Positions 24,957 to 44,769 are shown, counted from the first letter of the stretch. The stretch: 64,000 bases of DNA from Betaproteobacteria bacterium (GCA_013298145.1 JAAFJO010000006.1:124001-188000), one strand, 5' to 3'. The notes: generated by a model not told the origin, from the letters alone. Numbers and translations: made by a program.

Positions 24957-25057
24957 AATGAGGGCGAGCGTCGCCTTTAGTCCCGTGCGTAACAAGGGAG
25001 CACCACGAACGGTTTCAAGAAAACGCGTGCTGCCGAGTGCGCTCCTACAATCGCGAA

Positions 25058-25705: not shown

Positions 25706-25844
25706 AGCGGCTCACCGAGCTATCAAAAATGTGAGTACACGACGACCCACCAGCTCGGCTAAATTTCGCTGACGCCGCCTCAACCTTTCACCACCGCGCC
25801 GCAACCGCGCGTGCATGCGCCTAAAACGCATCAAAATAGACCGC

Positions 25845-27239: not shown

Positions 27240-27299
27240 GTTGAGGATTGATCCTTGTGCCCGTCGCTATTTGCTAACGGGATCTGCGAAGGATTTGTC

Positions 27300-28535
27300 G
27301 TGACCGACCGCAGCGCAACAGCGACCATCAAGGGATATTTCTACCAATTTGACCAGACCATCGTGCGATTGCTGGAGGGTTCGAAGCAAGCGAGCGTCAC
27401 GGTTGAAGGAATTGAAGATATCGATCTTGAGGATGGGAATGACAGTGCTTACGTCCAGTGCAAGTATTACGAAGGGACGGAATACAACCACTCGGTGATC
27501 AAGGAGGCTGTAATTCACATGCTGCGGCACTTTCATGCGGCTCGATTTCCAAGTGGTCGGGCCATTAAGTATCGACTCTATGGGCACTACAAGGGCGGCC
27601 AGCACAAGCTCAAGCTTCCCCTGACGGATGACTTCCTGAAGGCGAACTTCCTCACTTTCACGAAGGACAAGGTAGAGCACAAGGTTCACGATGAACTCGG
27701 GCTAATGCAACCGCAGCTCGCAGCCTTTCGGACCCTGCTTGATATTGATGTGAATGCGCTTTCCTACGATGCGCAGCAGAACAAGCTGCTTGGGCTCCTG
27801 AAGTTGGCGATTCCCGAATGCAGTGACGTCGATGCGAAGGTCTTTTACTATCCGAGCGCGATCAATGTAATTCAAGGGCTCGCGATCCAGGCTGACGAGG
27901 AAAAGCGAAAGATCACCAAAGAGAGATTTCTTCGGGAAGTGAATCGCAAGGATGTCATCTTCAGCGCCTGGTTACGGGAGAAGTTTGGCGCCGAGTATTA
28001 CGCGCGATTGATCCGGCGAAAATACTTCTACTTCGGCAAGACAAAGATGCCGAAGGCCTCACGATTCTTTGTCATTGACATGGCTGGCGAGTATGACGTC
28101 AGCAAAGCCACGCAGATGATGGTCCGAATGGCTGAGTTCTTCTCGCACAAGGAGCTCGTGAGGACGCCTCCCGCAGACAGGTTCTGCCCCTACGTACTGC
28201 TACGGGGGCTGACACTTGCCGAACTGGTCGACCTCAAAAAGAGCCTTTGGCACCAAGGAGTAGCCTTCAGCGATGGGTATCCGTTCCAAGGTGCCGACTT
28301 CTCGCCCAAAACACTTACCGCGGATCCTACCAAGGAACAGCTCTGGCGGATCAAGCTCGTGCCCAGTGAAGATCAGCTTGCGCCCATCATCGCAGCGGTC
28401 ACCGGCTCAGTCATCGAGATCTACGACTTCTACAAAACGACGCCACTGGACGGCACTTGTGTCACCAAGTGCCAGGTCGCTCACGCGATCAAGAGTAGTC
28501 ATTCCTATCTATTGCAGGAGGTCATGCAAGCATGA
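27300..28535 (+). CDS. Cap4/DUF4297-like nuclease paired with HerA
   Basis: A 411-residue protein from GTG 27300 with AAGGA 6-10 nt upstream; the ORF-track start at 27255 has no ribosome site. The N-terminal region has the pattern of DUF4297/Cap4-type dsDNA endonucleases: an aromatic GYFYQFDQTIVRLLE helix, then VTVEGIEDIDLED and VQCKYYEG, giving a D/E...QxK PD-(D/E)xK core (E39, D42, Q53, K55). The rest is not recognised. The stop overlaps the herA-like start as ATGA. Nuclease-HerA pairs of this type are described anti-phage systems; defence here is inferred from family and context. Confidence 0.75.
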   Translation: MTDRSATATIKGYFYQFDQTIVRLLEGSKQASVTVEGIEDIDLEDGNDSAYVQCKYYEGTEYNHSVIKEAVIHMLRHFHAARFPSGRAIKYRLYGHYKGGQHKLKLPLTDDFLKANFLTFTKDKVEHKVHDELGLMQPQLAAFRTLLDIDVNALSYDAQQNKLLGLLKLAIPECSDVDAKVFYYPSAINVIQGLAIQADEEKRKITKERFLREVNRKDVIFSAWLREKFGAEYYARLIRRKYFYFGKTKMPKASRFFVIDMAGEYDVSKATQMMVRMAEFFSHKELVRTPPADRFCPYVLLRGLTLAELVDLKKSLWHQGVAFSDGYPFQGADFSPKTLTADPTKEQLWRIKLVPSEDQLAPIIAAVTGSVIEIYDFYKTTPLDGTCVTKCQVAHAIKSSHSYLLQEVMQA

Positions 28536-30301
28536 GCGATTCAAACGACATTAGGGCGGAAGTAATTGCCGTTTTCCCAGACAAGGTAAAGATCTCGGTA
28601 GGCAATATCGCAGCGTTCGCCAATGATAAGAGCGTCAAGGTGGGCTCCTACCTTCGTATCACCGACAGCGAGGATTGCGCACTGATCGCAATCATCGAGA
28701 ACTTCTGCATCGAAGTAAACGACAAGTCCGAGCGCCGTCACATCATTGAGGCGCTTCCGCTGGGAATCATCGCTGACGGCAAGTTCATCCGAGGCGGTGA
28801 TACGTTGACGATTCCCCCCACCGGCGTTGCTCCGGCAACGGAGGATGACATTAAGAAGATCTTCGAAGACTCCGTTGAACCAGCCAAGAAGTTTGTGTTC
28901 AGCGCGTTGGTGTCGAACGAGAAAATCAACGTACCAGTAGATGGCGACCGTTTCTTCAATAAGCACATTGCTGTGGTGGGATCCACAGGTGCCGGAAAAT
29001 CCCACACGATCGCTAAGATCATTCAGACGGCGGTTAGCGCGAAGAATGGTGAGTATTCGCTCAACAACTCCCACGTCGTCATCTTTGATATCCACTCCGA
29101 GTACAGAAAGGCTTTTCCTGACGCCAACTTCCTCGACGCCAGCACGCTGAATCTACCGTACTGGCTGCTCAACAGCGAGGAACTGGAAGAGGTACTGTTG
29201 GATACGGGCGAGCGTGACAACTACAACCAATCGGCCGTGTTTCGCCAGTTGGTCACGGAGAACAAGAAGCGGCACAACACAGCTTCTAAGTTTGTCTTCT
29301 ATGACAGCCCGCTGAAGTTCAACATCCATGAGGTATTGAACGCGTTGTACAACATCAAGAACGAGACCGTGAACTCGAAGAACGAGGCGCGATACATGGT
29401 GGTGGATGACCGATATGAACTGCCCTTGGACGGAAAGACGGATCAAAACCACGGCTTGCTGTTGAATTCGGATGAGCGACTAAACAAATACTTCTTGAGC
29501 CGGCTCGAGTTTCACCCGACAAAACCCCAAAGCATCACTGCCGGAAGTTACGCAGACAAATCGCTGGACAAGTTCTTCACGCGGTTTGAATCAAAAGTAG
29601 CGCAAGACAGGCTCCAGTTTCTCTTCGGCCCAGCCGCGCAAACAGCCACGTTAGAGGGCACTCTCAAAAACCTTCTTGGCTACGGCGACAAACTGTCGAA
29701 CGTGACTATCATCGACCTAAGTGGCGTCCCCTTCGAAGTACTAAGCATCACCGTCTCCCTGATCTCGCGCATCCTGTTTGAGTACGGTTACCACTACAAA
29801 GTGATGAGGACCCGCGCCGACGAGACCATCAACACCGATGCGCCGCTCTTGCTCGTCTACGAGGAAGCACACAAGTACGTTCCCAACAGCGATCTGGCGA
29901 GATTTCGTGCCTCAAGGTTCTCGATTGAGCGGATCGCCAAAGAAGGTCGCAAGTACGGTGTCACGCTGCTCCTTTCGAGCCAGCGGCCATCCGAGATCTC
30001 CGAGACGATCTTCTCCCAATGCAGCAACTTCTTGGCAATGCGATTAACCAATCCAAGCGATCAGAGCTACGTATCGCGCTTGCTGCCAGACACCCTAGGT
30101 AATCTTTGTGAGAAGCTTCCAACCCTAAGCGCAGGCGAAGCGCTTCTCATTGGTGATGCCGTCGTAATGCCGTCGCTGATCAAGGTCGAACGATGCAGCC
30201 CGACGCCGTCGTCTATCGATATTCCGTACTTCCAGCTATGGAAAGAAGAATGGAAGAGTATTGATTTCCCTGGAATTAAGAAGACTTGGCTCAAAGAGTA
30301 A
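28532..30301 (+). CDS. HerA-like hexameric ATPase
   Basis: A 589-residue HerA/FtsK-class ATPase. An N-terminal beta-barrel (HAS-barrel-like, residues 1-100) precedes the P-loop GSTGAGKSHT (about 150-159). Walker B is LLLVYEEAHKYVP (about 437-449), followed by an arginine-finger-like RIAKEGRKYG and the sensor SSQRPSEIS. Bacterial HerA homologues beside nucleases assemble with them into large defence complexes. Translation is coupled to the upstream nuclease by a 4-nt overlap. Nothing mobile is seen at the borders. Confidence 0.9.
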   Translation: MSDSNDIRAEVIAVFPDKVKISVGNIAAFANDKSVKVGSYLRITDSEDCALIAIIENFCIEVNDKSERRHIIEALPLGIIADGKFIRGGDTLTIPPTGVAPATEDDIKKIFEDSVEPAKKFVFSALVSNEKINVPVDGDRFFNKHIAVVGSTGAGKSHTIAKIIQTAVSAKNGEYSLNNSHVVIFDIHSEYRKAFPDANFLDASTLNLPYWLLNSEELEEVLLDTGERDNYNQSAVFRQLVTENKKRHNTASKFVFYDSPLKFNIHEVLNALYNIKNETVNSKNEARYMVVDDRYELPLDGKTDQNHGLLLNSDERLNKYFLSRLEFHPTKPQSITAGSYADKSLDKFFTRFESKVAQDRLQFLFGPAAQTATLEGTLKNLLGYGDKLSNVTIIDLSGVPFEVLSITVSLISRILFEYGYHYKVMRTRADETINTDAPLLLVYEEAHKYVPNSDLARFRASRFSIERIAKEGRKYGVTLLLSSQRPSEISETIFSQCSNFLAMRLTNPSDQSYVSRLLPDTLGNLCEKLPTLSAGEALLIGDAVVMPSLIKVERCSPTPSSIDIPYFQLWKEEWKSIDFPGIKKTWLKE

Positions 30302-30393
30302 ATCAGAGGGCCTGAGATCAATTTCCTCGCAAGACCCTGTGTGTATTACTCACACGGTCGCCGCGATGCGGCAAGTCCCCGAGTGCGAATCGC

Positions 30394-30801
30394 CTATGCC
30401 TGATCCGGCGCAATCACTTCTACGGTCGGGAAATACGCGCGGTAGCGCGCCGAATCACGCGTGAGGACTGGTGACTGGATGACAGCGGCGTGCGCACCGA
30501 TGAAAAAGTCGGGCAGCACGCTTTGTCGCGTGCCCTTTGCGCGCTTGTATTGCATGAAGGCTTTGCCTGCGAGGAAGAGCGCGGGGCGCGGCAATTCGAA
30601 CACTTGCAGTTGCAGTTGGGCCACGGCGCGCTCCAGCTCTTCAATGCGGGCGAACGCGCAGGAGATTTCAGCGTAGATGATCGGGTTGATGACCAGCGCG
30701 TGAATTTGTGACTGCGCGCGCAATTGCGCGATCGACCACGCCGCCCATTCGCTATCGTCTTCGAGCACGTCGATCAAGACGTTGCTATCCACGAGCAGCA
30801 T
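30394..30801 (-). CDS. VapC-like PIN-domain toxin
   Basis: A 135-residue PIN-domain protein. Acidic residues appear in LLVDSNVLIDVLE, NPIIYAEISCAF and LPDFFIGAHAAV, with a C-terminal TRDSARYRAYFP. It is on the minus strand 12 bp after the AbrB-type antitoxin gene and convergent with the HerA gene. It differs clearly from the VapC at 20385-20789. Confidence 0.88.
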   Translation of the reverse strand: MLLVDSNVLIDVLEDDSEWAAWSIAQLRAQSQIHALVINPIIYAEISCAFARIEELERAVAQLQLQVFELPRPALFLAGKAFMQYKRAKGTRQSVLPDFFIGAHAAVIQSPVLTRDSARYRAYFPTVEVIAPDQA

Positions 30802-31172: not shown

Positions 31173-32693
31173 TCAACGCCCTTGCCCAACAAACCCCTTC
31201 ATCAATTCATCCAACACCGCCCTGCCCTTCGCGCCGCGGGCGTTGTCGTGGTTTAGGAAGAGGACGACGACTTGCGGCTCGCCGCTTGCGTCGGGTAGAT
31301 AGCCCGCGACGCTGGTGACGTTGCGGAGACCGCCGGTTTTCATGCGGCCGATTTCGTTGGCGGGGGTGTCTCTGAGGCGATTGCGCATTGCGCCGTCGAT
31401 GCCGACGATCGGCAGGCTCATCATGAATTCGCTCGCCCATTTGCTTTTCTGTGCGGCGCGTAGCGTTTGCGCGAGGGTCATCGGCGCGATCATTTCCTTT
31501 CTTGAGAGGCCAGAGCCGTTTTCGATCACGAGGCCTGCGTCGTCGATGCCATTTTCACGAAGCCAGGCGCGAACGACGGCGTCGGCGCGCGCTGCAGTGG
31601 GCGCGCTTTTCTCTAGCTTCGTTGTCGCGTCGCTGGCGAGTGCGCCCATCGTGAGATAGGCGATGCGCGTCATTGCGTTATCGCTTCGCTTGTTGATGTC
31701 ACGATTGAATTCGGCGAGCGTTCGGGAATCGACGTTTGAAACGGTTCTGACTGGCGGGTCGCCCGCGTTCGCACTACGCGTGGGCGCGATCCCCTCTCGC
31801 GCACGACCGCTCCATTGCCCGCCGAGCGATTTCCACAGGGCGCGAGTGACGCGCTCAACGTAATCGGTGCGATCAATGATGTTGATTTCTGTGGCGATGC
31901 TGCAATTTTTCGGGAAGGTGCCGAGGAGCGCAACGCGAATTTCACCGCTCACGAGTTTGTCAACGCGAGGGATTTTCCAATCGTCTTCCCAGAGCGCGCA
32001 GCTCTTTTCAACCAGCGCCATTTCGGAGACGAATTGCACGCCATCCATCAGCGGGCCGAATACGACGCGCACTTCTTTTTCGTCCGAGGCGATGGCGAGC
32101 TGGTTGAGATTGCTGCCGAGCATCAGCGCATCAGGAATCACGTTGTAGCGAAATTCGGGCGATTCATCGAACGGGGCAACGCCTTCGTACGGGCGCGGCG
32201 GTTGAAAAAACTCGCGATCCACGATGAGATCGCCCTCGATCACGCGGACGCCCTGCGCGCGAAGCGTTCGCAGCATCGATTCCAGCGCGTCGACGGAAAG
32301 CTCATCCGCGCCGCCGCCGACCAGGGCGAGATCGCCGCGCAAGGTGTCTCCACGCTGTTCGGCGCGGGTGACGAGCGTGGTCTTCGGGCGGTAAGACGGC
32401 TTGAGCGTTTCCAGCGCGACGATAGAGGTCAAGACTTTGATCGTGGACGCAGGCTGCATGGCGCGAGTAGCTTGCCGCTGCCAGAGCACGCGCCCGTCGC
32501 TTTGGCGAAGCACGACACCGCCAAGCGCATCTTCAGGGATTTGCGCTTCGCGGAGCTTTGCGAGTGCGGGTTCTGGGATTGCACTTGCGGCATCTCGCGG
32601 CGCTTGCAGGTGTGCGCAGCCGCTCATGAACGCCATCGCGAGGAATGCGACTACCCAATGCGCGCGGAAATTTCGATTCAGTGTTTTCGCCAT
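31173..32693 (-). CDS. dacB: D-alanyl-D-alanine carboxypeptidase/endopeptidase (PBP4 family), lipoprotein
   Basis: A 506-residue S13 peptidase that trims or cleaves peptidoglycan peptides. The N terminus has a lipoprotein signal (AFLAMAFMSGC, Cys about 26). Active-site motifs are SxxK in PASTIKVL, SxN in RSDNAMTR and KTG in MKTGGLRN. Membrane anchoring by lipid is less usual for PBP4, which is normally soluble or loosely bound in the periplasm. It is divergent from the TonB receptor gene, with a 463-bp gap. Confidence 0.92.
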   Translation of the reverse strand: MAKTLNRNFRAHWVVAFLAMAFMSGCAHLQAPRDAASAIPEPALAKLREAQIPEDALGGVVLRQSDGRVLWQRQATRAMQPASTIKVLTSIVALETLKPSYRPKTTLVTRAEQRGDTLRGDLALVGGGADELSVDALESMLRTLRAQGVRVIEGDLIVDREFFQPPRPYEGVAPFDESPEFRYNVIPDALMLGSNLNQLAIASDEKEVRVVFGPLMDGVQFVSEMALVEKSCALWEDDWKIPRVDKLVSGEIRVALLGTFPKNCSIATEINIIDRTDYVERVTRALWKSLGGQWSGRAREGIAPTRSANAGDPPVRTVSNVDSRTLAEFNRDINKRSDNAMTRIAYLTMGALASDATTKLEKSAPTAARADAVVRAWLRENGIDDAGLVIENGSGLSRKEMIAPMTLAQTLRAAQKSKWASEFMMSLPIVGIDGAMRNRLRDTPANEIGRMKTGGLRNVTSVAGYLPDASGEPQVVVLFLNHDNARGAKGRAVLDELMKGFVGQGR

Positions 32694-33156
32694 GAACGGA
32701 TGCTACGAGAGGTTTCGCGCCGTCGGCGCGCGGGCGATATCGGATGACGAAATTGGCATGGTGACGCTGTAGTCGCTTCACTTATTTAGCAAAAACAGCT
32801 AAATCCCTATTTTCACTGCACTAGCGATCGATTAAATATTATTTCGCTAATTAGTTTTATCGTCATCTAGCCCAATTCTAACGGCATTTAAATACGTAGT
32901 TCTGTAGATTAAGGTGTTCCCCTAAATGCTGCGCGGCGTTGTCCGTTTTCCGCTACCGCTTTCATGCAATTTCGGCAACGTGGGACGTAGTAATTGACAT
33001 AAAAGTCATCGACCGCGTGTAATAAGCGGAACCAGTTGAGTACCAGTTGCAATTGGGCACCGGGCGGATTCAAGCAATGTTTGGGGCGTTGTCAAACTCG
33101 TGTGTTGCAGCTGGGTGAAGCGGGCAAGTCAATAACCTTCTACGAGAGGATTACCA
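32694..33156 (+). promoter_or_regulatory. AT-rich intergenic region with predicted receptor promoter
   Basis: 463 bp without a gene between dacB and the TonB receptor. The AT-rich part (about 32772-32930) contrasts with the surroundings. TTGACA at 32994-32999 and TGTAAT at 33018-33023 (18-bp spacing) make a good sigma-70 promoter for the receptor, leaving a leader of about 125 nt. GAGAGGA at 33144-33150 precedes the GTG start. I see no Fur box or other known operator. Confidence 0.5.
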
Positions 33157-36045
33157 GTGAAACTGAAGAAACTTACTTACGGGATCGCGCTGTCGCTAGT
33201 GGCGGCGCCGATCGCGTTTGCGCAAACCGCACCCAATACGCCGCAACGTGTGGAACGCGTTGAGATCACAGGATCGAGCATTAAGCGGATCGCTAACGAG
33301 GGCGCACTGCCGCTCCAGATCATCACGCGTGCAGAACTTGAACGCGAAGGCATCACCACGGCTGAGCAGCTCGTTTTGAGCCTGAGTACAAACGGCAACG
33401 GCCTTGACAACTTAGCATCCAATGCAGACGTCGTGGGCGGCGCTCAACGCGGCAATAACGGCGCAACCAGCGCAAACTTACGCGGCCAAGGCAGCAATGC
33501 AACGCTGATTCTTTTGAACGGTCGCCGCGTAGCGGCGCACGGGTTGAACGGCGGCACAGTTGATTTGAACCAAATTCCGATGGCCGCCATCTCGCGCATC
33601 GAAGTATTGAAAGATGGCGCGTCTGCGATTTACGGAACTGATGCAATCGGTGGCGTAATCAACTTCATTCTTCGAAATGATTACACCGGCATCAGCGCAA
33701 ACGTAACGGCTGACGTCACCGAAGCGGGCGGCGGCAATATCTTTAACGGCAGCATCCTCGGCGGTTTTGGCAATCTGCAAAAAGATGGCTTCAATGTCAT
33801 GGCATCGCTCTCAGTGCGCGATGCAAAAGCGCTGCGCGGTGATCAACGTGATTTCGTTAATACTTTTCAGCCAGATCGCGGCTTGAGCGTTGATACGCGC
33901 GGAACGCCGTTCGCAACGATTTTTCCGCTCGCTGGGACGCTCTTCCCAGCCGCAGCAAACTTTCCGTTTATCCCCGGCAGCACCACAATTCGCGCGAGCG
34001 GTGGCTTGAACATTCTTGATCTGCCAGGTCAAGCCGGATGCGGCAGCGTTCCAGGCCAAGCGCCGTACGCAGACTTGCTCTGGAACACGCCAAGCGCCGC
34101 GTATGCCTGCGCTTGGGACACAGGTAAAGCCGCCGTGTTGCAACAGCCAATCCAAACCACAAGCTTTGTGGGGCGCGGTACGCTGAAGCTCGGTCAGCAT
34201 CAAGTGGTGGGCGAGGTCGTTGCCTCTGAATCAGATTCAGCAAAGCGCTTTTCGAATCTGCAACTGACGCCAAACACCACGACGCAACAATTGCGTTATC
34301 CGCGTAATTCGTTCTCACAAGCAAGCTACGACCGCGTATTCAATGCGCTTCTCGCGGCCTTCCCAACGACGATTACCGAGGCGCAACGCGGACAATCGCT
34401 CGCCTACCGTTGGCGCTGTATCGAATGCGGTCCGCGCGAAATTGAAACCAATGCGAAAACGCAGCGATTCGCGTTGAACGCAGACGGTCCACTCTTCGGT
34501 GGCTGGGATTACCGTGCTGGTATCTCTCAGGCAACGAGCGAAGCGAAATCAACGCTCGGCGGGGGTTACTACTTCCGTGGCACCACGGCGACGGGGGCAA
34601 GCGATGGCGGCCCAGGCATCATTCCAGCGCTCAATAGCGGTCGGATTGACATCTTCCTGCCTGCAGGCCAGCGCCAAAGCGCAGACGGCTTGGCTGCGCT
34701 CGAAGAAGCCTCTGCGCGCGGCGTGGTGCTCTATGGCGGCAAATTCACAATGACGCAAACCGATGCGTCGGCGAGTGGTCCGTTGTTCAAGCTGCCAGCG
34801 GGCGATCTGATGGCCGCGGTGGGTGTCGATCTGCGAACCGAAAAATACAGCTTTAATGGCGACGAGCGTGCCGCTGCCAATCAGCGCGTCATCATCGCAG
34901 CGCCGTTCGACCAAGCCAACATTCTCGGCGGCGCAAAGCGTGACGTGACGGCGTTCTACGGCGAGTTGCTGATTCCTGTGGTGAAAGGGCTTGAGGTCAC
35001 GCTGGCGATGCGCCAAGACAAGTATGACGGTTTCGGCACCACCAGCAACCCGAAAGCCTCGGCGCTTTGGAAGCCAACGAATAGCTTGCTCTTCCGCGGT
35101 TCGTACAGCACAGGCTTCCGCGTACCTACGTTTAACCAGCTCTATAACGGCGCTATTGAATCGCTGTTCACAGGCACAACGCTCGTCGATCCTTTGACCT
35201 GCCCGGGCGGTCGTCCAAACACCACACAGCCAGGCTGTGCGTTCATTGATCGCGGCGCGAACATCATCAACGGCGGTAAGCCCGATCTGGGCCCGGAGGA
35301 GGCAAAAATGTCTTCGCTTGGCTTCGTGTGGGAGCCAATGCCTAGCATCAGCATCGGGCTGGACTGGTGGGATATTGAGCGCACCGGAACGATTCAAATC
35401 CTCTCGCTCACGCAGTTGATCGACAACTATCGCTTCTTCCCAGAGCGCTTCATTCGTGACACCTCAGGCAGATTGATCGCAGTGGATCAGCGCTGGGTGA
35501 ATGCGGGTTCGTCGCAAACAGCGGGCATCGAAGTGAGTCTGCGTGGCGGATTCGATGCGGTTGGCGCACGCTGGACGACCGGTTTGGATGGCACCTATCT
35601 CACCAAGAAGCGCTCACGCGTTGTCGCGGGCGTGCCCTACGGGCCGAGCGAAATCGGTCAATTCAGCTTCGCAGGCGATCTCGGGCTTCGCTGGAAACAC
35701 AGCGCTTGGGTGAGCTACAAGCGCGGCGCGTGGACTGGCACGCTGAGCCAAACCTTCCGCGCGGGCTACAACGATCAGGTGCTTCCTGGCGTTGCATCCG
35801 GTGCAGTGGTGCCACCGAACTGGAATCCGAAAGTTGCGAGCTACACAACGTACAACCTGTCGGCAACCTATAGCGGCATCAAAAACCTAACGATCACCGG
35901 CTTGGTGAAAAACGTGCTCGACAAAGACCCTCCGTTTGCCATCACCTACGATAGCAACGGCGGTTCGGGCAGCTCATGGGAGCCACGCGTTGCTGACCCA
36001 CGCGGTCGTGCATTCGTGTTGAGCTTGGGCTACCAGTTCAAGTAA
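33157..36045 (+). CDS. TonB-dependent outer-membrane receptor
   Basis: A 962-residue receptor starting at GTG 33157. The signal peptide (KLTYGIALSLVAAPIAFAQ) is followed by a TonB-box-like RVERVEITGSSIKR, the plug (residues about 45-170, with NLRGQGSNATLILLNGRRVA and IEVLKDGASAIYGTDAIGGVINFILR) and a 22-strand type barrel ending in the aromatic-terminal GYQFK. A disulfide-like pair (GCGSVPGQ... and YACAWD) lies in an extracellular loop. This sub-type is common in Xanthomonas/Caulobacter-like receptors for organic substrates. Iron-siderophore use is possible, but no siderophore genes are nearby, whereas peptidoglycan enzymes surround it. Confidence 0.93.
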   Translation: MKLKKLTYGIALSLVAAPIAFAQTAPNTPQRVERVEITGSSIKRIANEGALPLQIITRAELEREGITTAEQLVLSLSTNGNGLDNLASNADVVGGAQRGNNGATSANLRGQGSNATLILLNGRRVAAHGLNGGTVDLNQIPMAAISRIEVLKDGASAIYGTDAIGGVINFILRNDYTGISANVTADVTEAGGGNIFNGSILGGFGNLQKDGFNVMASLSVRDAKALRGDQRDFVNTFQPDRGLSVDTRGTPFATIFPLAGTLFPAAANFPFIPGSTTIRASGGLNILDLPGQAGCGSVPGQAPYADLLWNTPSAAYACAWDTGKAAVLQQPIQTTSFVGRGTLKLGQHQVVGEVVASESDSAKRFSNLQLTPNTTTQQLRYPRNSFSQASYDRVFNALLAAFPTTITEAQRGQSLAYRWRCIECGPREIETNAKTQRFALNADGPLFGGWDYRAGISQATSEAKSTLGGGYYFRGTTATGASDGGPGIIPALNSGRIDIFLPAGQRQSADGLAALEEASARGVVLYGGKFTMTQTDASASGPLFKLPAGDLMAAVGVDLRTEKYSFNGDERAAANQRVIIAAPFDQANILGGAKRDVTAFYGELLIPVVKGLEVTLAMRQDKYDGFGTTSNPKASALWKPTNSLLFRGSYSTGFRVPTFNQLYNGAIESLFTGTTLVDPLTCPGGRPNTTQPGCAFIDRGANIINGGKPDLGPEEAKMSSLGFVWEPMPSISIGLDWWDIERTGTIQILSLTQLIDNYRFFPERFIRDTSGRLIAVDQRWVNAGSSQTAGIEVSLRGGFDAVGARWTTGLDGTYLTKKRSRVVAGVPYGPSEIGQFSFAGDLGLRWKHSAWVSYKRGAWTGTLSQTFRAGYNDQVLPGVASGAVVPPNWNPKVASYTTYNLSATYSGIKNLTITGLVKNVLDKDPPFAITYDSNGGSGSSWEPRVADPRGRAFVLSLGYQFK

Positions 36046-36063
36046 CCCGTAACCAGCACGGGA

Positions 36064-36095
36064 AGCCGGAGCGCTAAAACGTTCCGGCTTTTTTA
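36064..36095 (+). terminator. Rho-independent terminator after receptor gene
   Basis: AGCCGGAGCG, a short CTAAAA loop, CGTTCCGGCT, then a run of T. It lies 18 bp after the receptor stop and 14 bp before the LD-carboxypeptidase ATG, so the downstream gene would depend on read-through or its own promoter. Confidence 0.85.
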
Positions 36096-36108
36096 TTGGA
36101 GCGCCCCG

Positions 36109-37212
36109 ATGAATAGGGCAAGGCGAACGATTACTTCTATTCCGCTTGCTGCAATAATAGGCGGCTTGCCCCAGTTAACGTTGGGGAAAACTGCTAAGCC
36201 TGTCTCGCAGTCAACAACACAAACGGTGAGCGAATCGGGCAACCGACGGCCTACGCGCCCTACGCGCCCCCCGCGCCTTCGTCGCGGCGACGGGGTCGCG
36301 CTTATCAACCCCGGCGGCGTGGTCAGCGAAGCCAATGTCGAGCGTGCCATTGCGAACGCAGAGACTTTGGGCTTAGTCCCCCAACTCGGGCGAAACCTGC
36401 GTCTCAAATATGGTGGCTATGCCGGCAGCGCACGCGAGCGAGTGGATGACCTCCACGCCGCATGGCGTGATCCTGACGTGAAAGCCATTTGGTCAGTGCG
36501 TGGCGGCTCGGGTACTGCGCAAATCCTTCCGCTGGTTGATTTCGCGCTTTTGCGCGCGACGCCCAAAGTCTTGATGGGCTTTTCTGACATGACGGCGCTC
36601 CTTAACGCGGTCACCGCCCATACCGGCCTCATCACCTTCCATACGCCGAGCGGTATTTCAACGCTCTCACCGTATTCGCGCAGAAATATGGAACAGATTA
36701 TTTTTGACGCGCCCCAACACTACGCCATGCTCCCCGCACTCGAAAACGAAGCGCGCAGCGGCGCTGAACCCGAGTACGCGGTGCGTACACAACGTGGCGG
36801 GCGAGTTGAGGGTGAATTGGTGGGTGGCAATCTGGCCGTTTTCGCGTCGCTTGTGGGCACGGCTTACATGCCCTCGCTTGCAAACAAAGTTTTGTTTCTG
36901 GAAGATATCAACGAAGCGCCCTATCGCATTGATCGAATGCTCACGCAGCTCGTACAAGCCATGACGCATACAAAGCAATTTCCGGCGGCGACTGTATTCG
37001 GCGTGTGCCGCCGCTGTGAAGCAACAGATGGCGAAGCGTCACTCACGCTGCAGGAGGTGATTCGCGATTACGCGGCAAGCCAACCCGGTCCAGTCGCGAG
37101 TGGTTATTCGTTCGGACATATCGCCGCACAGATGAGCTTACCGATTGGCGCGCGCGCTGCGCTCGACACCTACGAGCGATCGCTCACGCTGGTCGAAGCG
37201 GCAGTGGCTTAG
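36109..37212 (+). CDS. LD-carboxypeptidase (peptidase S66, LdcA-like) with export signal
   Basis: A 367-residue S66 peptidase. Family members remove the terminal D-Ala from murein tetrapeptides. Nucleophile serine is in MGFSDMTALLNA, the glutamate in VLFLEDINEAPYRIDRM and the histidine in SFGHIAAQMSLPIGA. The start at ATG 36109 gives an N terminus MNRARRTITSIPLAAIIGGLPQLTLG, which looks like an export signal (possibly Tat), followed by a proline/arginine repeat (RRPTRPTRPPRLRRGD). E. coli LdcA is cytoplasmic, so periplasmic placement would be unusual. Its stop is 2 bp from the convergent serine-hydrolase gene. Confidence 0.9.
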   Translation: MNRARRTITSIPLAAIIGGLPQLTLGKTAKPVSQSTTQTVSESGNRRPTRPTRPPRLRRGDGVALINPGGVVSEANVERAIANAETLGLVPQLGRNLRLKYGGYAGSARERVDDLHAAWRDPDVKAIWSVRGGSGTAQILPLVDFALLRATPKVLMGFSDMTALLNAVTAHTGLITFHTPSGISTLSPYSRRNMEQIIFDAPQHYAMLPALENEARSGAEPEYAVRTQRGGRVEGELVGGNLAVFASLVGTAYMPSLANKVLFLEDINEAPYRIDRMLTQLVQAMTHTKQFPAATVFGVCRRCEATDGEASLTLQEVIRDYAASQPGPVASGYSFGHIAAQMSLPIGARAALDTYERSLTLVEAAVA

Positions 37213-37214
37213 CG

Positions 37215-38630
37215 CTACACAAGGGCTGCGCGATAGATTGCAGTGAGAATTTCTTCTTCGTAGCGATACATGGCTGAAAAGCGGCCTTTGTTCAGCTCGG
37301 GATCGCTTGCCGTTCCGCCCACCAAGAAAATGATGCCGTTGCCGCGTGACGGGTCAAACGCGAATGCAGAGGTTAAACCGTAGGCGTTGCCTAAGTGCCC
37401 CACCCCTTTGAAACCGCCACCTTCAACTAGCCGATCGCCCCGCCGACCTTCTGAAATATCGAGAAAAATCTGCGGCCCGAGCGCCCAGGCGTTGAAGAGA
37501 CCGCCCTCGCCTTCGTCATCTTCTGCGCGATTGCCTTTGCCATCAAGCGCAGCTCGGCTGTAGCGCCATTGCTCGGTAAAAAGCGTCGAGACCGCCCGCT
37601 CACTCAATACGATGCGTCCGTCAATCTGCCCACGGTTCATGAGCATCGTCATCGTGCGACGCAGACCGCGGAGCGAAATTCGAAGCCCGCCCTGCGGCCC
37701 GAACACCGAGCCGTTGGTACCCACCACATACGCATCGGTTGCGCGGGGCTTCGGTGCAGCACGCGTGTAGTCATCCACTTGAGGGACCCAAGGCCCCGAG
37801 GTATCCCAGCGCTCACGACCGTTTACTTCGGTTCGCTTTCGATACAGCGTTGCAACCCGCGCGAGTTCTGCCGATGCGAGTGAAGCGGGATCAAATGTGG
37901 CTGTCACGCCCAGGGGCGCAAACAGTTCACGCTCCATCAAGCGATCAAAACGGACTCGGGTTGCACACTCCATCACCGTTGCAATCATGCCGAACGCAAA
38001 GTTGCAGTAGTTGAAGTATGGGCCCGGTGCACGATTCTTCGCCCACATTTCGCCCTTGCCAAATCGTGCGCTACCGGGAAGCCATACGTCGCGAAGCGCC
38101 ACCGTTTCGGGAAAGTTGTAGCCACCGCCATCACGAAGCGATGACGTGTGCGAGAGCAGCATTCGAAGCGAAATCGGCGACGTGGGGAAATGCGGATTTC
38201 TGAGCGGGTATCCGAGGTAATCGCTGATATCGCGATCTAGATCCAACACCGCTTGGTCCGCCAACTTCACAGCGACCATCGCAACAAACATCTTCGAGAT
38301 CGAAGCGATGCGATACAAGAAATCCGGTGTCGCCTCGATGCCACGTCGCGCATCGTTCGCGTCAATTCGCGCGAATCCCACTGCGTTTTCATAAACGATC
38401 TGGCCGCCCCGCATTGCGAGCGCGGCGATACTCGAAAGCTCTCTTCCAGGCGATTGCGAAATCGAGAGGAGCGCGGCATCGAGTTCAGGCAGCGGGCGCG
38501 GCGGTGTACGTTTCATGCGGCTCATAGTTTCAGGCTCAGTCGAGATTTGCTGCGCGGTGCAGGCAACGAGGCTCGTCGCAGCGGCCGTGACAAGCAGCTC
38601 ACGTCGCGTGAATCGGCGAGCGCTGGTCAA
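37215..38630 (-). CDS. Serine hydrolase of the beta-lactamase/class C PBP family, Tat lipoprotein
   Basis: A 471-residue S12 family protein. The start is TTG 38630, overlapping the amidase stop (TTGA); it keeps a twin-arginine signal with lipobox (ARRFTRRELLVTAAATSLVAC). The SxxK motif is in IASISKMFVA, YxN in FNYCNFAFG and HxG-like GHLGNAYGLTSAF near the C terminus. Such proteins are D-aminopeptidases, esterases or carboxypeptidases; the substrate cannot be told from sequence. Coupling to an AmiD-like amidase points to a cell-wall peptide role (inference). Confidence 0.88.
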   Translation of the reverse strand: MTSARRFTRRELLVTAAATSLVACTAQQISTEPETMSRMKRTPPRPLPELDAALLSISQSPGRELSSIAALAMRGGQIVYENAVGFARIDANDARRGIEATPDFLYRIASISKMFVAMVAVKLADQAVLDLDRDISDYLGYPLRNPHFPTSPISLRMLLSHTSSLRDGGGYNFPETVALRDVWLPGSARFGKGEMWAKNRAPGPYFNYCNFAFGMIATVMECATRVRFDRLMERELFAPLGVTATFDPASLASAELARVATLYRKRTEVNGRERWDTSGPWVPQVDDYTRAAPKPRATDAYVVGTNGSVFGPQGGLRISLRGLRRTMTMLMNRGQIDGRIVLSERAVSTLFTEQWRYSRAALDGKGNRAEDDEGEGGLFNAWALGPQIFLDISEGRRGDRLVEGGGFKGVGHLGNAYGLTSAFAFDPSRGNGIIFLVGGTASDPELNKGRFSAMYRYEEEILTAIYRAALV

Positions 38631-39520
38631 GGCTTCTTCTCCGAAGCAACTGCGCGCACGCGAAACCCATCAGGGCGAGTCGCAATATCGAGGAGCGCCG
38701 CTGTTTCGGCGTCTAGCAGTCCATCGAATTTCGCTTGGCGATATTTCATCTGAAACGCCTCCACTGCGTTCTTCGTGGTTTGGTCATACGTATTTGTTCC
38801 CGGAACATTGAAGCCGTGCGCAGTGAGCTTTTGCTGAAGCCACGCCACATCGGGCAGCTTCGACTCAAACTCCCTTTGCTTTGCCGCGACCATCGCCTCA
38901 TCTGGCCAGGGAATGATGCCTTCATCCGCAAAGCGCTTCCAGGGAAACTTGGGGCCGGGGTCGTTTTTTCGGCCGGGCGCGATGTCGCTATGCCCCACGA
39001 CGCGATCTGGGCGAATCTGGTGTTCCTTCACGATGCCTTTGGTGAGTGCAATCACCAAGTCAATTTGCTCTTTCGGAAACTCGTGCCAGATGCGGCCCTC
39101 TGGCGTATCGGTGTAGCCCTTGCCGACGATCTCGATACCGATCGAGCTCGCATTAAGCCCCGCTGCGCCTTTCCAGTGGCTCACGCCCGCATGAAAGGCG
39201 CGGCGGTGCTCCGCAACAAACTGATAGATCTTGGGCGGGACGCCATTCTCAGGCTCAGTCACCAGATAGTGCGAGCTTACCGCGCCGAGCGTCAATACTC
39301 GAATCGACGCCTCGTTATTGATGGTTGTGAAATGCAAAACGAGGTGCTGTGCACGTGAATCCTGACTCAGCGAACGATGACTTGTTACATCGACCTCGAG
39401 CGCGCGCAGGTACTTGGGCTCGTCCGGTGCCTGCAAAGTAGAACAACCAGCGATAAAGGCCGCCGCACACAAAGCAGCGACAAACGTCTTCAAACGGGGG
39501 GAGTGCAGGAGCGCGCGCAT
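38627..39520 (-). CDS. N-acetylmuramoyl-L-alanine amidase, AmiD-like lipoprotein
   Basis: A 297-residue amidase_2 protein. ATG 39520 (MRALLHSPRLK) is chosen so that the lipoprotein signal (ALCAAAFIAGC) is N-terminal; the ORF-track start adds 29 residues. The zinc amidase domain has LVLHFTT, SSIGIEIVGKG, VVGHSDIAPGRKNDPGP, and a C-terminal peptidoglycan-binding_1 domain follows (LQQKLTAHGFNVPGTNTYDQTTKNAVEAFQ). E. coli AmiD, the same architecture, is an outer-membrane lipoprotein that removes peptides from (anhydro)MurNAc. The first gene of a two-gene unit with the serine hydrolase. Confidence 0.92.
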   Translation of the reverse strand: MRALLHSPRLKTFVAALCAAAFIAGCSTLQAPDEPKYLRALEVDVTSHRSLSQDSRAQHLVLHFTTINNEASIRVLTLGAVSSHYLVTEPENGVPPKIYQFVAEHRRAFHAGVSHWKGAAGLNASSIGIEIVGKGYTDTPEGRIWHEFPKEQIDLVIALTKGIVKEHQIRPDRVVGHSDIAPGRKNDPGPKFPWKRFADEGIIPWPDEAMVAAKQREFESKLPDVAWLQQKLTAHGFNVPGTNTYDQTTKNAVEAFQMKYRQAKFDGLLDAETAALLDIATRPDGFRVRAVASEKKP

Positions 39521-39658
39521 CAAGATTCGTTTGTCGCGAAGAGAAAAGTTCGATTGTTGCACTCGTTCAAGCCGATTGCTTTGCCAAATTCGCATCGCGT
39601 CAGCCAACCGCCGCGAGCACGCGATAGACTAGAACGACAACATTGATCGGGGTTCTTC

Positions 39659-40897
39659 GTGGCGCTCACCTACATCTGGTGCGGATTCTTCATCGTTGGT
39701 TTCCTTGCCGCACTCGCGCAGTGGATTTTCCTGGGCGATGCAACGGTGTTCAAAAAGGTTATCGATGGCACATTCGAATCCGCGAAGATCGCCGTTATGG
39801 ACATCTCTTTGCCACTGGCGGGGGTGATGACGTTTTGGCTCGGGATTCTTGCCATTGGCGAGAAAGCCGGTGCGATTCAAGTGATCTCGCGGGTGCTCTC
39901 GCCCTTCTTTTCACGCTTGTTCCCGGAGGTGCCGCGCGATCATCCGGCGACCGGTCACATGGTGATGAATTACTCCGCGAACTTCCTTGGGCTCGATAAC
40001 GCGGCGACCCCGTTTGGCTTGAAGGCCATGCAAAGTTTGCAAGACCTCAATCCGCAGAAAGACACGGCGAGTAACGCGCAGTTGATGTTTTTGGTCATCC
40101 AAACCGCCGGGCTGACCTTGGTGCCGCTCTCGGTGATCGCGCAGCGTGCGGTGTTGGGCGCGAAAGATCCTTCGGATATCTTCATCCCGACCCTAATCGC
40201 GACATATGTCGGCACCCTGGTCGCCGTACTCGCGGTCTGCCTCAAACAGCGAATCAAGATTCTTGATCCTGTGCTTCTTGGCGGCATCGGCATCATCAGC
40301 TCGCTGCTGTTTGGCATGGTTTACTACTTCGTGAACTATTTAAATCGCGAAGAAATTGAGCTCGTATCGAAGGTGGTCGCCAATTTGATTCTGTTTGGAA
40401 TCATCATTACCTTCATCCTGTTAGGTCTCAGGCGTAAAGTTAATGTTTACGAGGCTTTCATTGAGGGCGCGAAGGGCGGTATCGAAACGGCGCTCATGAT
40501 CATTCCCTATCTGGTGGGAATGCTCGTTGCGATTAGCGTGCTCAGGAATTCGGGGGTGCTCGGAATGATTGTGCAAGGCTTCACTTGGCTATTTGCGTCG
40601 CTCGGATTCAACACTGATTTCACCCCCGCCCTGCCTACCGCACTCATGAAATCAGTGTCTGGAAGCGGTGCGCGCGCCATGATGATCGACGCACTGAAAA
40701 CCTATGGCGTGGATTCGTTCGTAGGTCGCCTAACCTCCATCATGCAAGGCTCGTCAGACACCACGCTCTACATCATTGCGCTCTACTTCGGTGCGGTGAA
40801 GATCACGAGAACTCGATACGCCGTGCCGTTTGGATTGCTCGCCGACTTAGCGGGCGTAATCGCCGCAATCTGGGTGGGTTACCTGTTTTTCGGTTAG
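39659..40897 (+). CDS. SpmA-SpmB fusion membrane protein (nucleoside-gate family)
   Basis: A 412-residue inner-membrane protein starting GTG 39659. It fuses the spore-maturation proteins A (about 1-200; NYSANFLGLDNAATPFGLKAM) and B (about 235-412; SVSGSGARAMMIDALKTYG, IMQGSSDTTLYI), with about ten membrane helices. In Bacillus subtilis dacB-spmA-spmB form one operon involved in spore cortex, linking the family to peptidoglycan. Here, in a non-sporulating type of genome, it sits beside an amidase and 7 kb from dacB. Transport of a wall precursor or fragment is plausible but unproven. Confidence 0.9.
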   Translation: MALTYIWCGFFIVGFLAALAQWIFLGDATVFKKVIDGTFESAKIAVMDISLPLAGVMTFWLGILAIGEKAGAIQVISRVLSPFFSRLFPEVPRDHPATGHMVMNYSANFLGLDNAATPFGLKAMQSLQDLNPQKDTASNAQLMFLVIQTAGLTLVPLSVIAQRAVLGAKDPSDIFIPTLIATYVGTLVAVLAVCLKQRIKILDPVLLGGIGIISSLLFGMVYYFVNYLNREEIELVSKVVANLILFGIIITFILLGLRRKVNVYEAFIEGAKGGIETALMIIPYLVGMLVAISVLRNSGVLGMIVQGFTWLFASLGFNTDFTPALPTALMKSVSGSGARAMMIDALKTYGVDSFVGRLTSIMQGSSDTTLYIIALYFGAVKITRTRYAVPFGLLADLAGVIAAIWVGYLFFG

Positions 40898-41111: not shown

Positions 41112-42476
41112 CTAGAGCAACGCAAGTAGCCCGGTCGGGAAACGCGAAAGGGTAGGAAATGCGGCTGAGAGCTCCGCGCTAGACAGCCCGAACCAACGCG
41201 CAAGCGATGCGGCGTATTGCTCTGTGGCGGTACTCGGAATCCATCGACCGCCCGACGTGTCATCAGGACCGTTTACGCGCAGAACGGGGAATGTGCCGTA
41301 GAGTTTGTTGCCCTGTACCGCACCACCCACCACCACGTGATGCGAACCCCAACCGTGATCCGAGCCGCCGTTGCCGTTCGCAGGAAAATCGCGGCCGAAA
41401 TCGCTCATCGTAAATGCGGTGACTTGTTGGGCGACGTTCATCTCTTCCGCGGCGCGGTAGAACGCCGCCATCGCATTACTCACTGCGCCCAACAACTCGC
41501 CCTGATCCTGAAGTTGGTCCGCACCGTGCGTATCGAAGCCTCCGATGGATGCAAAGTAAACCTGCCGCTTCACACCCAGCGAAGCACGCACGGCAATGAG
41601 CCGGGCAATCGTTTGCAACTGATCCCCAATACCCGTTTGCGGGAATACGGTGGTGAGCGCAGGCGCTTGATTGAGCGCCGATTGAAATACTTGTTGCGTA
41701 TCGATGCCGCGCTTGATCACATCGTTCCAAGCCGCTTCAAATAGATGCGTACGTCGCACATTAATCATCTCCCCAAACCCTACCGAGAGTGCACTTGTTG
41801 ATTTTGGGTCGTACGACTCGAATCCGAAGTAACCACTCGGCGATACAGCATACGGCGCAACCATTGCACCCTGTTGAAAAAAGCTTCGGCCGTTGACAGC
41901 AATCGCCGTTGCGATGTTCTGCACGCCGTTGAGCGCTGCGACTTGATCGGCAATTCTTCCGCCCCAGCCTTGGCGAACACCCACGTCCGCAGCAGCGCTT
42001 TGCCACTGATTCTGCTGATCGCTGTGCGAAAAAAGATTCGGTGGCGAAAAACTATCATCGGTTTGCCACTGCGAGCGCGTGGTTGGTTTCACAAGCGGCC
42101 CGACATTCGCAACGGCCGCCGCTTTGCCCGTGCTAAAGAGCGTGGCTAGGGCCGACATTGAGCCGTGCAGCGCAAACGGTCTTCCGCCTGTATTGCTTGG
42201 GTTGATCGCCGCGACGCTCTCGCGCGCAAGCGCAAGCCGCCCGCGTCCGTTCGTATAGTCGGCAAAGCCGCTTGCGTCGAGCGGGATGAGGAGATTGTTT
42301 CCATCATTGCCGCCGAACATGAATACCGCAACGAGTGCTTTGTAATCCGCTGGATTGCTCACGTTTTGCGCGTACGCACTGCGCACGAGCCCGCCCAAGA
42401 GTCCGCTGGAAAGGGCCATTGGTGCAAGCGCGCCCAGACGAAGCACGTCGCGACGGTGGAGGTTGGTTGTGCTCAT
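41112..42476 (-). CDS. DUF1501 protein, Tat-exported
   Basis: A 454-residue DUF1501 protein with a twin-arginine signal (LHRRDVLRLGALAPMALSSGLL). It has the family's FMFGGNDGNNLLIPLD, GGFDTHGADQLQDQGELL and TMSDFGRDFPANGNGGSDHGWGSHHVV motifs, an alkaline-phosphatase/sulfatase-like fold. Its function is not established; such genes nearly always follow a DUF1800 gene, as here (10-bp gap). Confidence 0.93.
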   Translation of the reverse strand: MSTTNLHRRDVLRLGALAPMALSSGLLGGLVRSAYAQNVSNPADYKALVAVFMFGGNDGNNLLIPLDASGFADYTNGRGRLALARESVAAINPSNTGGRPFALHGSMSALATLFSTGKAAAVANVGPLVKPTTRSQWQTDDSFSPPNLFSHSDQQNQWQSAAADVGVRQGWGGRIADQVAALNGVQNIATAIAVNGRSFFQQGAMVAPYAVSPSGYFGFESYDPKSTSALSVGFGEMINVRRTHLFEAAWNDVIKRGIDTQQVFQSALNQAPALTTVFPQTGIGDQLQTIARLIAVRASLGVKRQVYFASIGGFDTHGADQLQDQGELLGAVSNAMAAFYRAAEEMNVAQQVTAFTMSDFGRDFPANGNGGSDHGWGSHHVVVGGAVQGNKLYGTFPVLRVNGPDDTSGGRWIPSTATEQYAASLARWFGLSSAELSAAFPTLSRFPTGLLALL

Positions 42477-42486
42477 GGTGCAATCC

Positions 42487-44541
42487 TTATCGTTGCACCG
42501 AGAATTCGGGGGCGATCACCGCTAACTTAAACGCGATCTCCATTCGCTCGTGCTTCTCGGTCGCTCGCAACTTGTTCATCGCGCGAAAGATGATGTCGCG
42601 GGTCTCGGCGCTCATCGCGCCGGCAAACCACACCCAGTTCAATTGATCAAGAAAGCGATTGGGATCATCAGCGAGCGACTCCCACTGTTCGGTCGCAAAG
42701 CTCACGGCATAGTCGCTGTTAAACCCCACGCCATGATCGCTAATCATTCGCGTGAAGAAGTTTGCGCTTCCCACAATTTGTGTATCGGTTACCAACTGCA
42801 TTTCAGGCACCACGAGGCCCGCCTGTGCAATCGGCCCTGCACGTGTAAAACTCAGTGAGAAAAAGTTAAACACGGACGGCGCAAGAAGCGGCGACTGCCC
42901 CAAATAATCATCCGGTGAATCGAGCCACCAAATTGAATTGCGACCGTTCTTCGATTGACCTTGCATCGCGTTGATGAAGTGAATGAACTTCACCATCGGT
43001 TCGCGTACTTTGCCGGCACTGGTTGAGTTCGCGCTGTAGGTTCGCGCTTCGGTGTCGAGCAATATCGCTTTCACCACCGCAGCCAGATCGCCGCGCTGCC
43101 CACGCCCGTTGTTAATCCATACCGTGCTAATGCGCGCCACGTATGCAGGCGAGGGGTTACTCGTCACAAGGAACTGGATCAAGCGCTTTGACATAAAGGG
43201 TGCGACGTTCGGGTGGCTCGCGATGTTGTCGAGCGCGTCAGCGAGATCCTTTTCCGGGGTTTGCCCGGCAGGAATGGCAGCGTTGCTTAGTAGTTTTTTC
43301 GCACCGCTTGAGTGACGCGTGGGCCACGCTCGCATGAAATCAGTCCAGTTCTCACTAGGATGATCGAAACTTGATGGCTTCGTCGTGTCATTCCCCGCAA
43401 AATTCCAACCGGTAAATGCCGCAGCAAATCCTTGTACGATTGACTGATCGTAGGAGGCAAGCGCGCGGCCTGCGGCATCTTTACGCACGCTACCGTCGGC
43501 GTTTAACTCATTGAGCCCGATTGAGAAAAGCTGCAGCACTTCGCGGGCGTAGTTTTCGTTCGGCATGCGCCCAGTTGCGGCGTCCTCTTTATCGTTGCCC
43601 AGCATGTTGAGGTAGTAGCCCATCGCGGGATGGAGGGTGACCTCTTGCAAGAGTGTGCGGTAGTTTCCGAATGCGTTGCGGTAAAGCAAATCCATCCAAG
43701 AAATCATCGCAGCGTTCTTTTGGTCTGGTGCGATATTTGAAATCACCATTATTTCCGAGAGCGCGAGTGCGACCCGAGCGCGCAGGCGAGCCTCGCCCCA
43801 GATGAGCTGCTGCCAGTACGACTCGTAGACATGCTCCTCTTTTTCCTCTTCGCCCGCAGCTTTGATGCGATCAAGGTAGAGTTCGTGCGAACTCCAAGGC
43901 GTCTGGATCTGCTCGTCGATCCACGCACTCGCACCTTTCGTTTCAGCGGCGCGAATATCATCCACCGATCTCGGTCCGAAGCTGCCCTGCATCAAAAGCC
44001 GCGCTGCATCTCGCATCTTCTCGTTGATTTGGATAGGTACAACCACCGTGCCAACCGTCAGGCGAACGACGTTGGATTTGACGTAGATCGAGTTCGCACT
44101 GCTTTCGGCGGTTGCAAAGAGTGTGTATTCCGCGGGGCCCGCATTGGCGATTACGTATTGACCGCTGCTACCGGTGAGCACGGTGGCGCGCTTGCCATTC
44201 ACCGTGAGCCAAAGCTTCGCGTTGCCGACATCGAGCGCGCTGTAGTTCACCAGCAAGTCTGCGCGATCATTGCTAAGCGCTCGCGTGCTCACGGCCAGTG
44301 TGATCGATGCAGCAGAGGCCTGTACCGCCGATGCGATCCAAACGGCAATTACGATTAGACCCAGGAGAAAGCGCCACCACGCGAATCGCGCGGGAGGTGG
44401 AGGAGCTAGCGCAGCGTGCGCCCTGCGCGCTCGACTCTCGCGTCTCAAAGCCCCCGGCAACGCGCGCGGGCCCACCGCGCCCGATAGAGCGGGCTTAGCC
44501 CCGAAGACGTTAGCTGTTGTCGACTCACTGACTTGCGGCAT
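42487..44541 (-). CDS. DUF1800 protein
   Basis: A 684-residue protein from ATG 44541 (MPQVSES), which has an AAGGGA site; the ORF-track start adds 17 residues. A basic segment (RRESRARRAH) precedes a membrane/signal helix (WWRFLLGLIVIAVWIASAVQA), then an Ig-like domain (about 75-165) and the DUF1800 body (about 170-680) with AARLLMQGSFGP, NENYAREVLQLFSIGLNELN and PSVFNFFS. It is partner of the DUF1501 gene downstream; the pair is probably exported together. Role unknown; polymer handling at the surface has been suggested for similar pairs. Confidence 0.9.
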   Translation of the reverse strand: MPQVSESTTANVFGAKPALSGAVGPRALPGALRRESRARRAHAALAPPPPARFAWWRFLLGLIVIAVWIASAVQASAASITLAVSTRALSNDRADLLVNYSALDVGNAKLWLTVNGKRATVLTGSSGQYVIANAGPAEYTLFATAESSANSIYVKSNVVRLTVGTVVVPIQINEKMRDAARLLMQGSFGPRSVDDIRAAETKGASAWIDEQIQTPWSSHELYLDRIKAAGEEEKEEHVYESYWQQLIWGEARLRARVALALSEIMVISNIAPDQKNAAMISWMDLLYRNAFGNYRTLLQEVTLHPAMGYYLNMLGNDKEDAATGRMPNENYAREVLQLFSIGLNELNADGSVRKDAAGRALASYDQSIVQGFAAAFTGWNFAGNDTTKPSSFDHPSENWTDFMRAWPTRHSSGAKKLLSNAAIPAGQTPEKDLADALDNIASHPNVAPFMSKRLIQFLVTSNPSPAYVARISTVWINNGRGQRGDLAAVVKAILLDTEARTYSANSTSAGKVREPMVKFIHFINAMQGQSKNGRNSIWWLDSPDDYLGQSPLLAPSVFNFFSLSFTRAGPIAQAGLVVPEMQLVTDTQIVGSANFFTRMISDHGVGFNSDYAVSFATEQWESLADDPNRFLDQLNWVWFAGAMSAETRDIIFRAMNKLRATEKHERMEIAFKLAVIAPEFSVQR

Positions 44542-44769
44542 CGGTGTTCCCTTTCGGACGTACCGTACGCAAATCCCCCGGCGAGTTTGCATTGCGACGT
44601 GTGTACTTACGAAGCCAGCATCGACATCGCTTATTTACACGATCACGCGCGAGAGTTTATGCCAATGTCATCGTATGTCAATCGTGCGAATATTCATTTG
44701 AGCTTTTACGCCTCGCCCTTTTTTAAATAGGTTTTGACGCGATAAATGTATTATTTCGAGTGTAAGTCT

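Follow-up and report, generated by a model that had tools for sequence, protein, structure and literature searches.

Seven genes in a betaproteobacterial genome, encoding cell-wall enzymes, a TonB-dependent receptor and a fused spore-maturation protein (SpmAB), probably belong to a system for the uptake and recycling of peptidoglycan fragments, of which they would supply the outer-membrane and periplasmic part. The genes lie in a window of 64,000 nucleotides (contig C18, 124001-188000; coordinates below are those of the window unless a locus is named) from a 4.13 Mb genome that is 99% complete. For comparison we used 16 congeners, which among named records appear as metagenome-assembled genomes (MAGs) of uncultured Betaproteobacteria/Burkholderiales.

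The locus and its enzymes

A sequence-only reading had placed six of these genes at 31173-40897, and Pfam searches identified all six at those positions. The gene set also includes a VanX-type dipeptidase that lies outside this range.

25037-25666, plus strand: VanX/DdpX-type D-Ala-D-Ala dipeptidase (Peptidase_M15, PF01427, E 4.5e-32)
31173-32693, minus strand: DacB, PBP4-type D,D-carboxypeptidase/endopeptidase of family S13, predicted lipoprotein (PF02113, E 9.7e-69)
33157-36045, plus strand: TonB-dependent receptor with plug and beta-barrel, GTG start (PF00593/PF07715)
36063-36090, plus strand: terminator-like hairpin followed by a T-tract, in the gap between the receptor and S66 genes (z -3.41 against shuffles)
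36109-37212, plus strand: predicted exported S66 LD-carboxypeptidase, LdcA-like (PF02016/PF17676, E 9e-35)
37215-38630, minus strand: S12/beta-lactamase-fold serine hydrolase, predicted Tat lipoprotein (PF00144, E 1e-39)
38627-39520, minus strand: AmpDh2/AmiD-type N-acetylmuramoyl-L-alanine amidase, predicted lipoprotein (PF01510 and PF01471, E 4e-26)
39659-40897, plus strand: SpmAB, fused spore-maturation A/B protein, candidate inner-membrane transporter (PF07670 twice, E 1.5e-21)

The genes had been described as packed with minimal gaps. This is true of two junctions, where 2 bp separate the convergent stops of the S66 and hydrolase genes and the start of the hydrolase overlaps the stop of the amidase in TTGA, but 463 bp lie between DacB and the receptor, and the gap between receptor and S66 gene contains the hairpin. 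Given this terminator-like element, close packing does not amount to a single transcript. The hairpin, which was detected by folding and was not listed by a promoter and terminator scan, lies 3' of the receptor gene in 15 of the 15 loci inspected, so the receptor may be expressed at a higher level than the S66 peptidase.

Between VanX and DacB, positions 25815-30801 hold a DUF2130 gene, a DUF4297 and HerA anti-phage pair and a VapC-like PIN gene. This block has the appearance of a defence island that was inserted between the two genes, which adjoin in congeners and are 5.5 kb apart in the window. At the other end, a DUF1501 and DUF1800 pair (41112-44592) lies beside SpmAB, as it does in congener G006 (L063).

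Putative enzyme activities were assigned from family membership. DacB scored 191 bits against TIGR00666 (cut-off 107.8). The VanX-type protein has SxHSxGxAxD and EWWH motifs that align with those of VanX (1r44); its nearest NCBIfam model is PRK10178, which represents the E. coli-type dipeptidase, at 146.6 bits and under the cut-off of 176. The amidase is closest to Pseudomonas aeruginosa AmpDh2 (4bpa, E 9e-82) and combines the Amidase_2 domain, PG_binding_1 domain and lipobox that define the AmpDh2/AmiD type. In the S66 protein both the N- and C-terminal Pfam domains were above cut-off, the best solved match was P. aeruginosa PA5198 (LdcA, E 1e-36), and alignment to PA5198 pairs the regions of the Ser-Glu-His catalytic residues, with the serine in GFSD, the glutamate in LED and the histidine in GH. 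An exported S66 orthologue is present in 15 of 16 congeners, and a separate S66 homologue is encoded on contig C17 of the same genome. For the S12 hydrolase the nearest NCBIfam model was AmpH, under its cut-off, and the nearest PDB chains were a PBP-related beta-lactamase and an alkaline D-peptidase; no activity could be assigned from these matches. The corresponding hydrolase of congener G011 appears to be broken into two frames (L061:12211-13574), through a frameshift or an assembly error.

Export signals were judged by eye, with no predictor. Lipoboxes were seen in DacB (MSGC), the amidase (IAGC) and the hydrolase (LVAC, behind a Tat-like RR motif), in agreement with the earlier suggestion that the enzymes carry lipoprotein or export signals. 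That suggestion holds less strongly for the S66 protein of the window, whose signal is weaker than the Tat-type signals of its orthologues. By the same inspection, these signals set the S66 protein of the locus apart from canonical LdcA, which is cytoplasmic, and no signal peptide was seen in the VanX-type dipeptidase.

Conservation of the gene set

Receptor orthologues with neighbours unrelated to the cell wall would have counted against the sequence-only reading. Across the genus and the Oxalobacteraceae we found instead that the set is conserved and that the neighbours are wall-related. In eight congener loci VanX is convergent with DacB, 49-321 bp away. The clusters of congeners G004, G011, G002, G012 and G007 add NagA, NagB-II, MurQ, NagX, GHL10 (DigH-like) and a BadF-type NagK-like kinase, and these sugar genes sit between SpmAB and the amidase. 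SpmAB in most of these clusters adjoins a signal-bearing protein of no known family and the D-Ala-D-Ala ligase Ddl, which lies near SpmAB in congeners. In several congeners (for example L060:2370-3374) this protein, of about 335 aa, is encoded between the SpmAB and Ddl genes; it had no Pfam or NCBIfam match. L086, a locus from one MAG, contains two further enzymes, one of the Ala-Glu epimerase family and the other an M74 endopeptidase.

When one genome per species was scanned, homologues of SpmAB turned up in Massilia, Telluria, Duganella, Rugamonas, Janthinobacterium and Undibacterium. In Massilia, Duganella and Janthinobacterium the same parts occur in a rearranged locus, whose order, where resolved, is S66, TonB-dependent receptor, SBP_bac_5 / SpmAB, DacB, then VanX, LysR, amidase, NagK, GHL10, NagX, AmpG-like permease and MurQ. 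Finding the same parts in different orders implies linkage beyond retained synteny. No core wall genes were seen beside SpmAB in the named Undibacterium loci. The SBP_bac_5 protein (DppA/OppA-like) is encoded directly upstream of SpmAB and divergently from it (L084:8067-9875), an arrangement present in 33 of 37 Oxalobacteraceae loci, and may serve to bind stem peptides.

Within 10 kb of SpmAB in 57 betaproteobacterial loci, which are mutually related so that the counts are not independent, we found DacB in 43, SBP_bac_5 in 37, AmiD in 31, VanX, the TonB-dependent receptor and NagK in 28 each, GHL10 in 27 and S66 in 26. By contrast, none of these genes other than AmiD (5 loci) was found within 7 kb of SpmAB in 48 loci from other Pseudomonadota; the contrast also holds when the betaproteobacterial stretches are cut to 7 kb.

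Two congeners, each a single draft genome, were informative by absence. In G010 (98% complete) we found no receptor orthologue, exported S66 peptidase, SpmAB, MurQ, GHL10, second AmpG-like permease, AnmK or Mpl, and these joint absences tie the locus to wall recycling. G016 (97% complete) retains the receptor, S66, hydrolase, amidase, DacB, SpmAB, AnmK and Mpl but has no MurQ, no NagA and no second AmpG-like permease, which implies that a peptide branch, from receptor to SpmAB, is separable from a sugar branch. A TIGR00901 search found canonical AmpG in both genomes.

A proposed pathway and its relation to AmpG

From the gene content, export signals, conserved linkage and sugar branch that we observed, we propose the following route. 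The TonB receptor would carry wall fragments across the outer membrane, and the AmpDh2/AmiD-type lipoprotein would cut stem peptides off MurNAc. DacB and the exported S66 LD-carboxypeptidase, probably with the S12 hydrolase, would shorten these peptides, freeing D-Ala. Transport over the inner membrane would fall to SpmAB, with D-Ala, D-Ala-D-Ala or a small peptide containing D-Ala as its cargo, which the VanX-type dipeptidase and D-Ala-D-Ala ligase would use in the cytoplasm. The substrate of a cytoplasmic VanX may instead be dipeptide imported by other means, for example through the SBP_bac_5 protein of Massilia. The glycan side would comprise the GHL10/DigH-like hydrolase, the second AmpG-like permease, NagK, MurQ, NagX, NagA and NagB, whose genes several relatives carry within the cluster itself, whereas in the window genome they form a cluster of their own, associated with GntR.

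That separate cluster is a single run on contig C21 of an N-acetylglucosaminidase-family gene, GntR, NagA, NagB-II, MurQ, an AmpG-like MFS permease, NagX, a GHL10 lipoprotein and a NagK-like kinase. At its head (L173:16119-18007) stand the N-acetylglucosaminidase-family gene and the GntR/UTRA regulator, a candidate for control of the pathway. Searches of the window, L173 and L176 for the NagR/DasR-type operator TGGTCTAGACCA with up to two mismatches gave no match, and a quick palindrome scan found no operator common to both loci. E. coli DigH belongs to GHL10. DigH acts on denuded glycans (PMC12288456), which are what the amidase would leave.

The route had been put forward as distinct from AmpG recycling, and the genome does not support this separation. 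Canonical AmpG is encoded on contig C12, outside the window locus (534 bits, cut-off 350), and the AmpG-like permease of C21 (173 bits, under the same cut-off) is a second, divergent member of the family, which in Oxalobacteraceae lies within the same locus as the wall genes. Because canonical AmpG is also present, the route of the locus is a supplement to AmpG and not a replacement for it.

A less likely possibility is that the cell merely recycles its own wall, with the receptor recovering leaked turnover products and no exogenous wall used as food. AnmK, Mpl, the second S66 homologue and canonical AmpG all occur in the same genome, and in G010 the loss of the locus is accompanied by that of AnmK and Mpl, which speaks for self-recycling. 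However, MurQ, NagA, NagB, N-acetylglucosaminidase, the second AmpG-like permease and GntR point to amino-sugar catabolism, and turnover products that are already periplasmic need no TonB receptor.

SpmAB as a candidate transporter

SpmAB contains two Gate domains (PF07670 twice) in one polytopic membrane protein, as expected of the SpmA/SpmB family. Its homologues are 46-93% identical, with an orthologue in 15 of 16 congeners. A sequence search of solved structures found no relative. An AlphaFold2 model was all-helical (pLDDT 82) and resembled ArsB, INDY, YdaH, SiaQM and CNT, although these matches were weak (best E 0.01, TM 0.3-0.48); the top fold matches are secondary transporters, mostly of the elevator type.

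In 38 loci DacB comes next after SpmAB, 3-273 bp away and in the same orientation. Outside the Betaproteobacteria, VanX lies beside SpmAB in three Cytophagales and S66 in two Opitutaceae. In Bacillus subtilis, dacB forms an operon with spmA and spmB (PMC8745062), and the mechanism of SpmA and SpmB is not understood (PMC5376575; PMC3533761). Because these recurrent neighbours (DacB, VanX, S66 and Ddl) release or handle D-Ala, we propose that SpmAB probably imports D-Ala or D-Ala peptides. A wider and more tentative reading is that SpmAB, and also SpmA/SpmB of spore formers, carries back into the cytoplasm what D,D- and L,D-carboxypeptidases release in the periplasm, and that in Burkholderiales it is part of wall-fragment scavenging fed by the TonB receptor. 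Both substrate and direction are inferred from gene linkage. Sugar-containing muropeptides are an unlikely cargo, since its recurrent neighbours either free or hydrolyse compounds of D-Ala, and since SpmAB is kept in G016, where MurQ, NagA and the second AmpG-like permease are missing.

A less likely alternative is that SpmAB is a passenger, or moves an ion, a nucleoside or another solute unrelated to D-Ala, leaving a wall system of enzymes and receptor only. Of 399 Pseudomonadota genomes, 93 encode SpmAB, in most cases with no wall genes around it, and in Bacteroidota, as in Pseudomonadota other than those of our loci, usually no wall gene adjoins it. Unsupervised clustering of neighbours outside the clade, with rough ORF calling and 12 loci unassigned, returned mostly unrelated genes, among which only VanX and S66 stood out. 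The fold, too, resembles several elevator families with diverse substrates. Against this, SpmAB is linked repeatedly to D-Ala enzymes of different families in Betaproteobacteria, Opitutaceae, Cytophagales and Firmicutes, and it is retained in G016 without the sugar branch.

The TonB receptor

Receptor orthologues are present in 15 of 16 congeners (43-79% identity), and in 37 of 41 loci the receptor gene is followed by S66. Profile searches and a structure model place the receptor near the FepA/Cir/BtuB class, and its nearest solved relatives are siderophore or B12 importers. Comparison with solved structures by sequence, profile or fold named no ligand. SusC/RagA models scored far under cut-off on the receptor and no SusD family member was found among the window genes scanned with Pfam, so the locus is not a polysaccharide utilization locus of the SusCD type. 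Gene linkage makes import of wall fragments by this receptor plausible.

That the receptor instead takes up a siderophore, a vitamin or an antibiotic-like peptide, with S66 and the beta-lactamase-fold hydrolase providing MccF-like immunity or processing the cargo, is very improbable: the receptor's solved relatives and the inclusion of MccF in family S66 would allow it, but the S66 protein is predicted to be exported and is closer to LdcA than to E. coli MccF (E 1e-25), which led us to reject an MccF identity, its neighbours are amidase, DacB, VanX, MurQ, NagA and GHL10, and the loci we examined showed neither iron genes nor biosynthetic ones.

Comparison with known systems

Our search of the open-access literature, beyond which most subscription papers and preprints lie, found no report connecting SpmAB with muropeptides or with transport of D-Ala. 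Nor did it return a TonB receptor for muropeptides associated with an LD-carboxypeptidase; either may have been described elsewhere. The linkage to D-Ala enzymes gives SpmAB a testable substrate. The pairing of a TonB receptor with an exported LD-carboxypeptidase in about 40 loci would, if our reading is correct, represent an outer-membrane entry for wall fragments, with a bearing on nutrient cycling from dead bacteria.

The locus shares with AmpG-dependent recycling (AmpG, AmpD, NagZ, LdcA, Mpl, AnmK, MurQ, NagA, NagB) the chemistry of amidase, LD-carboxypeptidase, MurQ, NagA and NagB. It differs in that export signals are present on the amidase, S66 and DacB, in the linkage of these enzymes to a TonB receptor and SpmAB, and in that the AmpG family member tied to the sugar branch is not the canonical permease but a divergent second one. 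Caulobacter GlcNAc clusters (TonB receptor, permease, NagA, NagB) likewise join a receptor to amino-sugar catabolism, but their substrate is GlcNAc, imported by a PTS permease, and the parts of that account that we consulted do not describe amidase, S66, DacB, MurQ or SpmAB (PMC13046382). Closest to the DacB-SpmAB pairing is the B. subtilis dacB-spmA-spmB operon, in which SpmA/SpmB are also linked to a D-Ala-releasing carboxypeptidase; there SpmA and SpmB are separate proteins, the carboxypeptidase belongs to S11 and not S13, and the role is specific to sporulation, in the cortex and core dehydration (PMC8745062). The E. coli DdpX/VanX system has a similar VanX-type dipeptidase without a signal peptide, whereas in our locus the ddpABCDF transporter was not identified and DacB, S66 and SpmAB are present instead. 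Finally, P. aeruginosa AmpDh2 and E. coli AmiD resemble the amidase in their Amidase_2 and PG-binding domains and predicted lipoprotein nature, and the amidase of the locus differs from them in its linkage to the receptor, S66 and SpmAB.
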